From Oligoflexales bacterium (lineage in GTDB: Bacteria; Bdellovibrionota_B; Oligoflexia; Oligoflexales; RGVZ01), in contig CANLUT010000002.1 in NCBI GenBank assembly GCA_947494335.1, positions 372,001 to 436,000 on the forward strand: a stretch of DNA of 64,000 nt. Reading direction: 5' to 3'. Of the stretch, positions 45,390-50,304 are shown piece after piece. The position numbers and the translations under genes are program-made. How positions within the stretch are numbered: the first letter of the stretch is position 1; each line of letters begins with the position of its first letter. The notes under the pieces are model-generated. The model was not told where the DNA came from. It worked only from the letters and a program-made list of their open reading frames with translations, and made no database searches.

Positions 45390-46199
45390 CTAAGAGTCTA
45401 GATAGTCTGCCAGCTCTTTAGCGTCTCCGGGTTTCATCTTTTTTGCTATCTCAGCAACCAAATGCAAAGCACCCTCTGCAAATAAAGTTCTATCGAAGGC
45501 TCGATGTGAAATGGAAACCTCTTCTAGGTCACTAATGAAGCGAATGCTGTGTTCTCCGACAACACCGCCTCCACGCACGGCGTGAATACATACGGTGTTC
45601 TTCTCTCTCTTACCTTTCCGTTCAAAGATGACTTTGAGTTTTGGATCGGTTTGCTCGACCACCTTCGCCAAAAAAATTGCTGTTCCACTGGGTGCATCAG
45701 CTTTTCTTGCGTGATGGGTTTCGATGATTTCAATATCAAATCCTGCAGGAGAAAGTGTGCTGACAGCAACTTTTGCAAGTTTTGCCATGGTGGCAACACC
45801 AAGGCTAGTGTTTCCTGCTAGCAGGAGTTTGTGCCGGCCTTTATGGGCCGCCTTGAAAAGCGCCGATCGCTGTTTGTTGTCAAGCCCGGTCGTTCCAACA
45901 AGAACAACTTTGCCGGTCGCATGCTCCAATGCTTTTGTCAGCGAGGATGTTCCTTTTGGTGAGCTAAAATCGATCACGATATCGACTCCCTGCAAGACGG
46001 CAGCGAGAGCTTTTTCGGAAAATTTAAGGACAGCCGTATGTTTTGCGTCAAAGGCCTTAATCTCACGTTCATCCACAGATGAAGCAAGGTTCAGGCTTGG
46101 GTGATTTTTCATTGCGTGAATCAATTGCAGGCCCATGCGCCCCGAGGCACCGTAAATGAGGCAAGACATTTGTGCCGTTGATTTAACTTTTTTTGTCAT
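45390..46199 (-). CDS. dapB: 4-hydroxy-tetrahydrodipicolinate reductase
   Basis: A 269-residue enzyme with the N-terminal nucleotide motif YGASGRMGLQ (about 15-24), DFSSPKG, GTTGLDNKQ and the substrate motif ETHHARKADAPSGTA with the catalytic His/Lys. It reduces HTPA to tetrahydrodipicolinate in the lysine/DAP pathway. I use the ATG at 46197-46199, 16 bases after the dapA stop; an in-frame ATG at 46241 overlaps dapA. It is the last gene in the ArgH-like/dapA/dapB operon. Confidence 0.95.
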   Translation of the reverse strand: MTKKVKSTAQMSCLIYGASGRMGLQLIHAMKNHPSLNLASSVDEREIKAFDAKHTAVLKFSEKALAAVLQGVDIVIDFSSPKGTSSLTKALEHATGKVVLVGTTGLDNKQRSALFKAAHKGRHKLLLAGNTSLGVATMAKLAKVAVSTLSPAGFDIEIIETHHARKADAPSGTAIFLAKVVEQTDPKLKVIFERKGKREKNTVCIHAVRGGGVVGEHSIRFISDLEEVSISHRAFDRTLFAEGALHLVAEIAKKMKPGDAKELADYLDS

Positions 46200-46215
46200 G
46201 AATAGCCTGCATTTT

Positions 46216-47112
46216 TTAGAGGATACTTCGTAGCTGATCATTTGCAGCTTCTATTGTTCTCTTGATAAGCGAGTAATTTTCTTCTGTCACGGGCGCAAGG
46301 GGCGCTCTCAGTGTGTTGCGTCCTAATCCAACAATTTCCAGGGCAGCCTTCAGTGGGCATGGATTCGTTTCACAAAAGAGAACATCAATAGCAGGTAAAA
46401 GAACTTTATGGATTGCCAAAGCCCGGTCATTTTTCTGAGCTGCAAATGCATTAGTTAATGCGACCATAGCTTCTGGAAAAATATTTGATACGACGCTGAT
46501 CACGCCCGTTCCGCCGACGGCAAGGCTTGCCAGATAGGTCGGGTCATCACCGCTTAAGATGTCTGCTTTTGAGCTGTTTACAACGCGGCTATAGAGAGCG
46601 ATATCACCACTCGCTTCTTTGACAGCCGTGACATTCTTAATTCCAGTTAACGTAGAAATAGCTTGCGAAGATAAGCTTTGCGCCGTTCTCCCCGGAACAT
46701 GATAGAGGCATAGGGGAACAGAGACGCTGTCAGCGATCATCTGATAATGTAATTTTAGTCCAGCGAGATTGGGCTTATTATACGGTGGCGTTACGATCAA
46801 AAGACTATCAGCACCAGCCTCTACACATAGTTTTGAAAGTTCAATACTTTGCGCCGTACTGTTGCCGCCACTTCCCGCCATGACTCGGATATTTGCTGGC
46901 AACAGAGCTCTGGCTTTTCTAACTAGAGAGATTTTTTCTTGAACTGTTAACGTCGGTGCTTCGCCTGTAGTGCCACTGATGACAACACCTGACACACCGC
47001 CTTTTGCCTGATGGGCGAGATGCTTTTCAAATGCCGACCAATCGATGGCCCCGCCGTCGGCAAAGGGGGTCGCAATGGCGGTCCATACTCCACTGAATCG
47101 AGCGTTATTCAT
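46216..47112 (-). CDS. dapA: 4-hydroxy-tetrahydrodipicolinate synthase
   Basis: A 298-residue TIM-barrel aldolase. The landmarks are GTTGEAPTL (about 48-56), the Tyr in LYHVPGRTAQ (about 136), and the Schiff-base Lys in VKEASGD (about 164). It condenses pyruvate and aspartate semialdehyde, the first committed step to DAP/lysine, feeding murein. The ATG has AAGGAC upstream. It starts seven bases after the ArgH-like stop and precedes dapB. Confidence 0.95.
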   Translation of the reverse strand: MNNARFSGVWTAIATPFADGGAIDWSAFEKHLAHQAKGGVSGVVISGTTGEAPTLTVQEKISLVRKARALLPANIRVMAGSGGNSTAQSIELSKLCVEAGADSLLIVTPPYNKPNLAGLKLHYQMIADSVSVPLCLYHVPGRTAQSLSSQAISTLTGIKNVTAVKEASGDIALYSRVVNSSKADILSGDDPTYLASLAVGGTGVISVVSNIFPEAMVALTNAFAAQKNDRALAIHKVLLPAIDVLFCETNPCPLKAALEIVGLGRNTLRAPLAPVTEENYSLIKRTIEAANDQLRSIL

Positions 47113-47119
47113 ATTTACA

Positions 47120-48517
47120 TTAGTCCTTCACGGTAACGGGTGTCGGTGTTGAAAGGCGGCGTTCAGAATTACTAGGCTCTTTAAACGGAATTGCAGGCCG
47201 CGGATCAGTCAGGTCAGATACAACCTGGGTCTTTACTCCACATCCACCAAAAAAAATCCCGACTAAGAAGATGGCCATAGGCGCAGAAAATGGAACAGTC
47301 ACGTTGAGCGCCTTGCGAATTTTCTTTGCAGCTTCCATGAATCGTGATTTTTCACTGGCGCCACCAGGGGTGGCCGTTAGGCTGTCGGCTGTTAATGTTG
47401 CGGCAAATTCCAGCGTTTCTTCTTTAAGGTGCGGATTTATTTTCTTAAGCTCAGCAGCGATGAGAATGGTTGGCAGGGCGTTGTGGTTGCGGCAGTAGTT
47501 CATAAGATCACTGGCAGCGCTGTTGGCTTCGGTTGCGGTTGTGCCGCCTTTAATCAAGTTGCATACGACAGCGCGCTCTACGTCTGCTGACAGCAGATCC
47601 AGACCTGCAAGCTTTTCTTTTGGAGATAAGGACTCGGCAAAAAGCTTTGCTGCAATGTTCATGCGCTGATTAAGTACGAACAATTCATGGAGAAAAAATA
47701 GCCTTCTTGTTTCCCATACGTGTAGGTTTGTGCTGATCTCAAATCTCAAACCCGACAGATGCTGGCATTCGGCAGCCAGAATTTCGCAGGCAGCCTCAAG
47801 ATCTTTCATCTTGCTAATACTGGCAGTGTTGTCACGAAGTCCTGCAACGATCTGACGGACGCTGTAAGACATTTCATCAAAGGCAGTGATTATTCTTCTG
47901 ATGGCTCGCTGCTCGGTACGACAGTAGCTTAACGTTTCTGGCTCGAGTCCGCTAAACCCAACCTGTAATGCAATTCGATGCTCTGCTTCATGCTGGTGGC
48001 CGCTTGTGTCAAGAATATCAGCCGGCCGCATCAGCGACAGCTCATGGATGATTGCTTTCAATTCAGTTGCCGTGTCATGGAGAATTTTTGCCGCATTACA
48101 AAGGACCGACGGAAAAAGCTCACGACGCGTTGTCAACGTTTGAGAGTGAGTTATGAAGGGCCTGTTCATGAAGAGTTCAGCTTTTTTTAGGATCTGATCC
48201 GCCCAAGTGGCAAGCGAGGCGCAGCTTTCAGCCAAAATATTTTTGGTTGAAAGACGCATGTGATTCCAGGCAAATCCGACGACTCCGTAACGGGCAGCTA
48301 GAATATTTAAAAATTCAGCGTCGTGGTCTGCCAGAAGTGGAAGAACAGATGTTTGTGCCGAGGCTAGCTGCGGCGTAACAGCAGCAAGAGATAGTTTTAG
48401 ATTTTCAACAGACCGCTCTGAGATCAGTTCTTCGGTGGCCAAGGCGGAAGCATACGATGTAAGGAGGTCAATGGTGGCGGCATTGTCGAGTTTCAAAAAC
48501 GTCGTCCAGTCCTGCAT
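47120..48517 (-). CDS. ArgH-derived degenerate lyase fused to an LptM-like lipoprotein tail
   Basis: The ATG at 48515-48517 has GAGG seven bases upstream; the product is 465 residues. The body, about residues 1-405, aligns along its length with argininosuccinate lyase: ITHSQTL at the GYTHLQ position, HMRLSTKN at the HTxRSRND signature, ASISKMKD at the catalytic SSIMPQKKNP loop, and a C-terminal part with LIKGGTTATEANSA at 'LVxKGVPFREAH' and TPGG near the end. The catalytic loop and RSRND are lost, so activity as a lyase is unlikely. The last 45 residues form a hydrophobic stretch ending in GGC and a Pro-rich tail, like the LptM lipoprotein encoded between argH and lysA in relatives. It heads the dapA-dapB operon. 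Confidence 0.7.
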   Translation of the reverse strand: MQDWTTFLKLDNAATIDLLTSYASALATEELISERSVENLKLSLAAVTPQLASAQTSVLPLLADHDAEFLNILAARYGVVGFAWNHMRLSTKNILAESCASLATWADQILKKAELFMNRPFITHSQTLTTRRELFPSVLCNAAKILHDTATELKAIIHELSLMRPADILDTSGHQHEAEHRIALQVGFSGLEPETLSYCRTEQRAIRRIITAFDEMSYSVRQIVAGLRDNTASISKMKDLEAACEILAAECQHLSGLRFEISTNLHVWETRRLFFLHELFVLNQRMNIAAKLFAESLSPKEKLAGLDLLSADVERAVVCNLIKGGTTATEANSAASDLMNYCRNHNALPTILIAAELKKINPHLKEETLEFAATLTADSLTATPGGASEKSRFMEAAKKIRKALNVTVPFSAPMAIFLVGIFFGGCGVKTQVVSDLTDPRPAIPFKEPSNSERRLSTPTPVTVKD

Positions 48518-48542
48518 GGGCTCTCCTCGTTTAAGCAAGAGT

Positions 48543-48575
48543 TAAAAAAAAGGCTGGTACCCAAGGATACCAGCC
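48543..48575 (-). terminator. terminator after outer-membrane protein; possible attenuator of the dap operon
   Basis: An eight-base-pair stem (GGCTGGTA/TACCAGCC, arms 48552-48559 and 48568-48575) is followed on the minus strand by seven or eight T. It ends the rny-ymdB-outer-membrane-protein transcript. Only 25 bases separate its T run from the ArgH-like start codon, leaving no room for a promoter after it. Confidence 0.85.
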
Positions 48576-48621
48576 CAATCATAAGTACATAGTCAAAGGC
48601 GACGGGTTGCTGGCGCAAACC

Positions 48622-50268
48622 CTAGAATTTTATCGCAAAGCTGCCAAGAAGTCCAAAGCCCATCTGCGCATCTCTCACGCTAGATGTCTTCCAAGCTTTA
48701 CCCGGAGAGCCAACGGCTCCACCAAGTCCAAGCTCAATCTCTCGCTGGTATTGGTAGGTGTACATTAAGTCAAGTTCATAGCCGAGATCTGACCCATAGA
48801 ATCCAATTGGTCTAGTCGTATCTGTTCCTGAATTTAAATAGCTAACCACCGCTTGTGGAGCGGTTTCTAGCAGTCGACCACTGATAGCTTTGATTTCAAA
48901 GTTACCTGACTCCATGTTTTCGTAGCGGTATCCAAGGCTATAGAGGGCTGTGTTGAGGACCCGATCAGGATTGAATACGCCGCCGATGGCATTTTTGCGA
49001 TTTGTTGAACGGCTATTGAAAAACAGCATGGCTGGATGATAGTTGCGGTGAAACGCCATGGCTTGTGCGCGGTTATCTTCTCGCTTGGATTCGCCGATAG
49101 CCGTATTCCGGGCATCAGAGTTGGCCGTGTCATAGTAGTAGCCGTCAGCATCGCCTGGCGCATAAGCGTAGTCAGCAAACACTAGATGGCGACGCAGATT
49201 TCCTTCATTAAACTCTTCAGGTCCGAGAGATGCTCCCGATTTTTGGATTGTATATTCTAATCGCCCGGCGACACCCATGGAGTTCATGTTGTTTGTCACA
49301 ACTGACTCATCTGAAGAGCGCTTACCTCCCATCGCCACGACGGATGGATCAGCTGTTTTTCCAAGACGGAAGATCAGCTCGTTTTTGAGAGAAAATTTTC
49401 CGAAATAAAATCCTGTGTAGAGATCAAAAAACTTTACATCGGTTTTGGAATCTGTCGAAAGGATGTTGGAGAAGTAAATTCCAACTTGCTTGGCAAAAGA
49501 GCCTGGACCTTTTGTTTTCAGATCGTCGTAGGTGATGCCAAAGAAGAGTTGTTCCATATCATCGGAGGCTTCGTCAGGACCAAAGTCTCCTGTTTTGGAA
49601 TTGAAGTCGTTTTGACGCTGCTGATCAGCGACTGGGCTATCGTATGGGTTATCAATAAAAGTCCCAGTTTCTTGAAGCTTGTCTACGCCAAAGGTAAAGC
49701 CAAGATCTTGGTGCTTCTGCATGTTGACGTCACAGGTAACACCGTCAAAGATTGATGCATCAGTGTCAAACGGACGCTTTCCGCTATTTAGAAATGCACC
49801 GATACCGACGTCACGACTGCGGCGACCGGCTGTCAAAATACAATAATTGAAGGCGTATTTTCCGTAAGCTTCACGGATGACGGGAGTAAGAGATGCGTAA
49901 CCATTGTCAAAAACACTTTGATTTCTGCCGTTACAAGACGTGTCATCGGGTTCGCCAGTGGTTGACGAGCGACGTGGTTCACAGGTCTTTGGTCTTGCTG
50001 TATCGCCAAGGTAAAGGCCACTTTGATTTTCGCCAAGACCAAGACGAAGGTTAAAGCTAGCACGGTCGTTGGCTCTCACTTCGCCGTTTAAATCAAGAGA
50101 CACGCGGGTCGCTTGATAGAGGCCGTTACCCTTTTGAAAGTCGGGAGCTACACGAGTTTCACCGATGAGACCGTAGTGTCCATTGCCGTCCAAAAAAAAT
50201 GCTTGAGCTGGTAGAGATGGAACCAATCCCAATGCGAAGACTGTCGTTGCGGAAATCAAGTGCTTCAT
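48622..50268 (-). CDS. outer-membrane beta-barrel protein (porin-like)
   Basis: A 548-residue protein from the ATG at 50266-50268 (GGGGCG seven bases upstream; an in-frame TTG lies two codons earlier). It has a signal peptide (Lys-His-Leu, hydrophobic core, Pro-Ala-Gln-Ala cleavage near residue 22). The mature protein is a series of strands with alternating aromatic residues and ends in Phe after AIKF, the classic barrel C-terminus. Cys residues in the first third suggest disulphide-linked loops. It follows ymdB by 36 bases, so it is probably cotranscribed with rny and ymdB. Its substrate is unknown. Confidence 0.75.
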   Translation of the reverse strand: MKHLISATTVFALGLVPSLPAQAFFLDGNGHYGLIGETRVAPDFQKGNGLYQATRVSLDLNGEVRANDRASFNLRLGLGENQSGLYLGDTARPKTCEPRRSSTTGEPDDTSCNGRNQSVFDNGYASLTPVIREAYGKYAFNYCILTAGRRSRDVGIGAFLNSGKRPFDTDASIFDGVTCDVNMQKHQDLGFTFGVDKLQETGTFIDNPYDSPVADQQRQNDFNSKTGDFGPDEASDDMEQLFFGITYDDLKTKGPGSFAKQVGIYFSNILSTDSKTDVKFFDLYTGFYFGKFSLKNELIFRLGKTADPSVVAMGGKRSSDESVVTNNMNSMGVAGRLEYTIQKSGASLGPEEFNEGNLRRHLVFADYAYAPGDADGYYYDTANSDARNTAIGESKREDNRAQAMAFHRNYHPAMLFFNSRSTNRKNAIGGVFNPDRVLNTALYSLGYRYENMESGNFEIKAISGRLLETAPQAVVSYLNSGTDTTRPIGFYGSDLGYELDLMYTYQYQREIELGLGGAVGSPGKAWKTSSVRDAQMGFGLLGSFAIKF

Positions 50269-50304
50269 ATGCAAACGCCCCTATGCAAAGCTTTTGAAGG
50301 GATC

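Follow-up and report, generated by a model that had tools for sequence, protein, structure and literature searches.

Organisation of the locus

The window (the whole 64,000-nt stretch of the Oligoflexales bacterium genome, G000, that was analysed) carries on its minus strand the genes rny, ymdB and a TIGR04551-like gene, followed by an ORF of 465 aa, dapA and dapB. The ORF (47120..48517, minus strand, as are all features below) opens with an ATG at 48517, 5 nt behind the Shine-Dalgarno sequence GAGGAG (48523..48528); an in-frame TTG at 48538 is a possible alternative start. Residues 1–405 (47303..48517) form a body that is predicted to be a pseudoenzyme with the fold of argininosuccinate lyase (ArgH). 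Residues 409–425 (47243..47293) are a hydrophobic stretch of the lipoprotein signal type, which ends in Gly-Gly and is followed by a Cys. The remaining residues, 426–465 (47123..47242), begin CGVKTQVVSDLTDPRPAIPFKE and constitute an LptM-like lipoprotein tail.

Only 7 nt separate the ORF from dapA (46216..47112; TIGR00674, 5.1e-82), which is followed by dapB (45390..46241; TIGR00036, 3.4e-54). Upstream, the TIGR04551-like gene (48622..50274) is a conserved neighbour that encodes a predicted outer-membrane beta-barrel protein; its AlphaFold2 model is a beta barrel with its best PDB fold matches to AlgE. The preliminary description placed the fusion gene at the head of a dapA-dapB operon. This is plausible, but rny, ymdB and the TIGR04551-like gene precede it on the same strand, with a gap of 104 nt between the last of these and the fusion gene. 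A terminator-like hairpin (48551..48576) of 11 bp, followed by a T run, lies in that gap. The hairpin is strong and ends 33 nt ahead of the fusion start codon, which leaves no space for a promoter behind it; hence, it is possibly an attenuator of the fusion-dapA-dapB unit. Some relatives also have hairpins in front of the fusion gene, and in others the gap is only about 26–32 nt. An Rfam search found no riboswitch in the operon.

Fold of the body

Searches with the single ORF sequence gave nothing significant in Pfam or NCBIfam and one insignificant match in the PDB (E 0.13), and homologues were therefore collected first. Comparison by hhalign of a 30-homologue alignment with 13 genuine ArgH sequences of relatives gave 98.5% probability over 378 columns, as against 0.06–0.25% for the controls DapA, DapB and the TIGR04551-like family. 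AspA and PurB were considered as the parent of the body and rejected, the AspA/PurB-like lyases scoring 0.5%. When the PDB was searched with the 30-homologue profile, delta-crystallins were the best matches (E 1.9e-7), with argininosuccinate lyases lower, and the commonest Pfam match among the homologues was ASL_C2 (PF14698; 7 of 30, best 5.8e-5). The AlphaFold2 model of the product (pLDDT 84, pTM 0.77) has a mostly helical body. In a Foldseek search of the PDB, where an unrelated fold would have contradicted the preliminary description, the opposite was found, all 50 top matches being argininosuccinate lyases or delta-crystallins (E 7.6e-10, TM ~0.6).

Judged from the profiles and the predicted structure, the body has the ArgH fold, and the ArgH layout that had been proposed along its whole length is borne out. 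The C-terminal part had been described as leading to the residues TPGG, but TPGG is restricted to close relatives. The body shares with ArgH (TIGR00838, PF00206 and PF14698) the helical fold, an ASL_C2-like C-terminal domain and, in outgroups, an operon place beside lysA and dap genes. It differs in that the catalytic loops and the Thr/His residues are gone, every ArgH cut-off is missed, the fusion occurs without argG, and a lipoprotein tail is added. Delta-1 crystallin is an ArgH-fold protein kept for a non-catalytic purpose. Delta-crystallin structures in the PDB rank near the top of the matches to the body; however, delta-1 crystallin is an eye-lens protein that is much more similar to ArgH and has no membrane or lipoprotein tail.

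Loss of the catalytic residues

Only 8 of the 55 positions that are invariant in ArgH persist in at least half of the homologues. The regions of H-RSRND and GSSxMP fall into alignment gaps, with no counterpart residues in the homologues, and the motif losses noted from the window sequence are real. Catalytic T159 and H160 are kept in none of the homologues, and across the motifs SRND, THxQ and GSSxMPxKxN there are gaps or unrelated residues; the few strictly kept residues of the body are R272, E356 and K390. With TIGR00838 (cut-off 279.5 bits) no match was obtained in the ORF's own genome, and the best among the 30 homologues had an E value of 0.16. A second ArgH in the own genome was also considered and rejected, the PF00206 match being PurB-like.

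Neither argG nor argH was found in G000 or its genus, which appears to lack the final two steps of arginine synthesis. Sister families elsewhere in the order have both genes, joined in a separate argG-argH operon, in addition to the pseudoenzyme. A pseudogene was rejected, as the homologous frames are open in 33 genomes and pN/pS is low; within the genus the body is under purifying selection, with pN 0.12–0.22 versus saturated pS. From these alignments, the body is best described as an ArgH fold that is devoid of catalytic loops and has probably lost its function in arginine synthesis.

In a tree of the bodies together with ArgH sequences, every body fell on one branch with 100/100 support, and a single origin would be enough to account for all of them. 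The tree did not single out the parent ArgH, either the resident argH or a second copy, because the branch of the bodies is very long.

The lipoprotein tail

The hydrophobic stretch, GGC-GVK and Pro-rich end of the window protein had been likened to LptM (YifL). These features are real and are found across the homologues, contrary to the outcome, a non-conserved tail, that would have spoken against the preliminary description. In all 29 fused homologues that were aligned, a hydrophobic stretch leads into [G/A/S]-C-G-[V/L/I/F]-[K/R], the residue preceding Cys thus being G, A or S in 29 of 29; next comes, typically, an 'S-D-x-x-D-x-R-P-x-I-P-F'-like motif. Four more, divergent fusions (G010, G014, G034 and G037) also have the tail, and CG is invariant in 33 of 33 aligned tails. 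The uncharged stretch before Cys has a median length of 17 residues.

Matches to the LptM models are weak. With PF13627 (cut-off 27.3 bits) the best E value was 0.0077 for a stand-alone form of an outgroup and 0.04–0.07 within the order, all below the cut-off; NF047847 (LptM), with a best E value of 0.0086 on homologues, is likewise one of the tail's best weak matches. Common to the tail and LptM are the hydrophobic stretch, the lipobox, CG(L/V)K and a short Pro-containing end, and in outgroups such a lipoprotein is encoded between argH or TIGR04551 and lysA. The CG(L/V)K start is the best-conserved piece of the tails. In E. coli LptM, Gly follows the lipobox Cys, a salt bridge from K23 to LptD has been predicted, and the protein promotes formation of the native disulfides of LptD (PMC10567701). 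Unlike LptM, the tail scores below cut-offs, has a C-terminal part that does not resemble that of the E. coli protein, and is found outside Proteobacteria, beyond which LptM-like genes were virtually absent in a published survey (PMC10567701). In addition, the signal of the fusion lies behind a 400-residue domain: in the window gene it lies close to the C-terminus, and in the stand-alone forms (G018, G025, G011, G012 and G040) it is the N-terminal signal of a small lipoprotein.

Lipoproteins encoded between argH and lysA in distant genomes (L182:7219-8133 and L184:4333-5688) have the LptM-like starts CGIKAPP and CGHRVPP. They have a long C-terminal part, which in one includes fibronectin type III domains.

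Fused, split and tail-only forms

Relatives of the ORF, sought in 96 genomes, occur all across the order and essentially nowhere outside it; a contig scan had yielded a single close relative only. By profile search, the body is present in 35 of the 43 genomes of the order, and in nearly all the gene lies between the TIGR04551-like gene and dapA-dapB. The 43 genomes comprise 33 with the fusion, two with body and tail as adjacent genes, five with the lipoprotein only and three with neither; a body without a tail was found in none. In G018 the body and an 81-aa lipoprotein are two neighbouring ORFs, and in G025 the separate ORFs overlap by 4 nt. The lipoprotein alone is encoded downstream of the TIGR04551-like gene in G011, G012, G019, G028 and G040. 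A tail-only profile matched 40 of the 43 genomes with E values of 2e-8 or lower, a result that confirms rather than discovers, as the tails of most of those genomes were included in the profile.

Gene orders in outgroups indicate where the fusion came to lie. Canonical argH occupies the same spot in G233 (TIGR04551-argH-lysA-dapA-dapB), and in G085 an lptM-like gene does so (TIGR04551-lptM-like-lysA-dapA-dapB). In G144 and G071, a lipoprotein gene lies between argH and lysA (argH-'CGIKAPP' lipoprotein-lysA-dapF-dapA and argH-'CGHR' lipoprotein-lysA-dapF, respectively). Thus, the window fusion occupies the argH/lptM place of the outgroups, and the intervening lysA is gone. The argH-lptM-lysA order given in the preliminary description is thereby met with in actual genomes, and its proposals that argH kept its place and was fused to a neighbouring LptM-like gene agree with these orders and with the adjacent and stand-alone forms.

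Lipopolysaccharide genes

With PF04453, no LptD was found in any of the 43 genomes of the order. Absence of LptD from the order was nevertheless rejected as false, since LptD_N and PDB profile searches find it. The own genome encodes an LptD homologue of 1059 aa on contig C3 (L196:2826-6005), which matches Pfam LptD_2 above the cut-off and the NCBIfam LptD models below theirs; the profile of this family matched solved LptD structures at 7.5e-27. Three cysteines, a CxC pair and one C-terminal, are invariant in the four LptD copies.

The tail is absent from three small genomes of the order (G015, G020 and G021), which are the only ones of the 43 with neither an LpxC nor an LptD_N match and have possibly lost lipopolysaccharide. 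The association of the tail with LpxC has a raw Fisher p of 3e-4, which is uncorrected for kinship and genome completeness and represents two lineages at most (G015 and G021 belong to one genus), the genomes behind it being 82–86% complete. This pattern suggests retention of the tail for as long as lipopolysaccharide is made, with the body as an optional partner. The new structural or regulatory role that the preliminary description suggested for the body is an inference, and the findings connect the tail with lipopolysaccharide and the outer membrane rather than with murein precursors.

Proposed mechanism and alternatives

We consider it about an even chance that the fusion is a pro-lipoprotein, in which a non-catalytic ArgH body is joined to an LptM-type lipoprotein that aids assembly of a divergent LptD. 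The body of ~400 residues would fold in the cytoplasm, and the hydrophobic stretch near the C-terminus, acting as an internal lipoprotein signal, would enter the Sec machinery. Cys would then be lipidated and the chain cleaved ahead of it, releasing to the outer membrane a lipopeptide of about 24–70 residues that could assist assembly of the genome's own LptD. The body would remain behind and, without catalysis, might delay, tether or control the release. Lipidation, cleavage, partnership with LptD and whatever the body may do, gating included, are steps that we infer, and a lipoprotein signal behind a folded domain of 400 residues is unusual. It is more tentatively suggested, and on the doubtful side, that this applies across the order, with a dead enzyme as cytoplasmic pro-domain and lipoprotein signal peptidase freeing an LptM-like lipopeptide that matures the lipopolysaccharide translocon.

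Two alternatives compete most closely with this reading: the protein may stay uncut as an anchored scaffold, or the tail may serve the TIGR04551-like barrel instead of LptD. In the first, the protein would never be cut and would be an inner-membrane scaffold with a C-terminal hydrophobic anchor; its pseudoenzyme would lie in the cytoplasm and its short tail, possibly lipidated, in the periplasm. The predominance of fusion (33 of the 35 body-bearing genomes) and the purifying selection that acts on the body both suggest that the parts act together. However, every homologue has G, A or S ahead of Cys, as lipoprotein signal peptidase is known to require for cleavage, the uncharged stretch is signal-peptide-like, and the tail persists in genomes that have no body, which makes a permanently uncut protein rather doubtful.

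LptD is perhaps not the partner of the tail, because the constant neighbour of the latter is the TIGR04551-like barrel. The barrel gene adjoins in nearly all loci, and TIGR04551 and lptM are also neighbours in G085, which lies outside the order, and in G012, in which dapA has been relocated. Yet G021 has no tail even though its barrel gene still lies beside dapA, and presence of the tail tracks the lipopolysaccharide genes. The barrel is thus an unlikely partner in place of LptD.

The lipoprotein might also be made separately from an internal translation start, the fused frame being incidental. An ATG lies 12 residues ahead of Cys in the window sequence and in three close relatives, and the 4-nt overlap of the G025 ORFs is as in translational coupling. 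Neither this start codon nor a Shine-Dalgarno sequence is conserved, though: L007, L014 and L031 have no ATG, GTG or TTG within 50 codons upstream of Cys, the positions vary in other homologues, and a signal starting at the internal ATG of the window would have no positive charge. Since no internal start codon is conserved, the fusion is read as one polypeptide, and separate production of the lipoprotein is improbable. That the body has remained a catalytic member of the fumarase/ArgH superfamily, acting on a new substrate, is hardly credible, for in spite of the retained overall fold and the strictly kept R272, E356 and K390, nothing in it corresponds to the SRND and GSSxMPxK loops and conservation of the Thr-His pair is lost.

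Significance of the fusion

The conserved fusion family is real. Each half is of a known kind; what is new is how they are combined and where the lipoprotein signal lies. A small literature search found no account of the two families joined, and no precedent for a lipobox that follows a cytoplasmic domain or for a bacterial ArgH pseudoenzyme fusion. The argininosuccinate lyase-N-acetyltransferase fusions of NF008964 (PRK12308) likewise have an ArgH body joined to a second domain, in their case an acyltransferase domain, but they are enzymes and include no lipoprotein part.

The family points to a possible route of merger, in which the gene for an enzyme of an old cluster lost catalysis, joined its lipoprotein neighbour and was retained across the order, with unfused and body-less forms surviving in some lineages. 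It extends LptM-like lipoproteins beyond Proteobacteria, and the tail is a candidate LptD partner for bacteria whose LptD escapes Pfam PF04453. Signal-peptide predictors that focus on the N-terminus would overlook a signal near the C-terminus, and the fusion is a test case for whether a lipoprotein signal can function when a folded cytoplasmic protein precedes it. If the pro-domain reading is true, release of an outer-membrane assembly factor could be gated by a cytoplasmic domain that once bound a metabolite and is encoded beside dapA-dapB.
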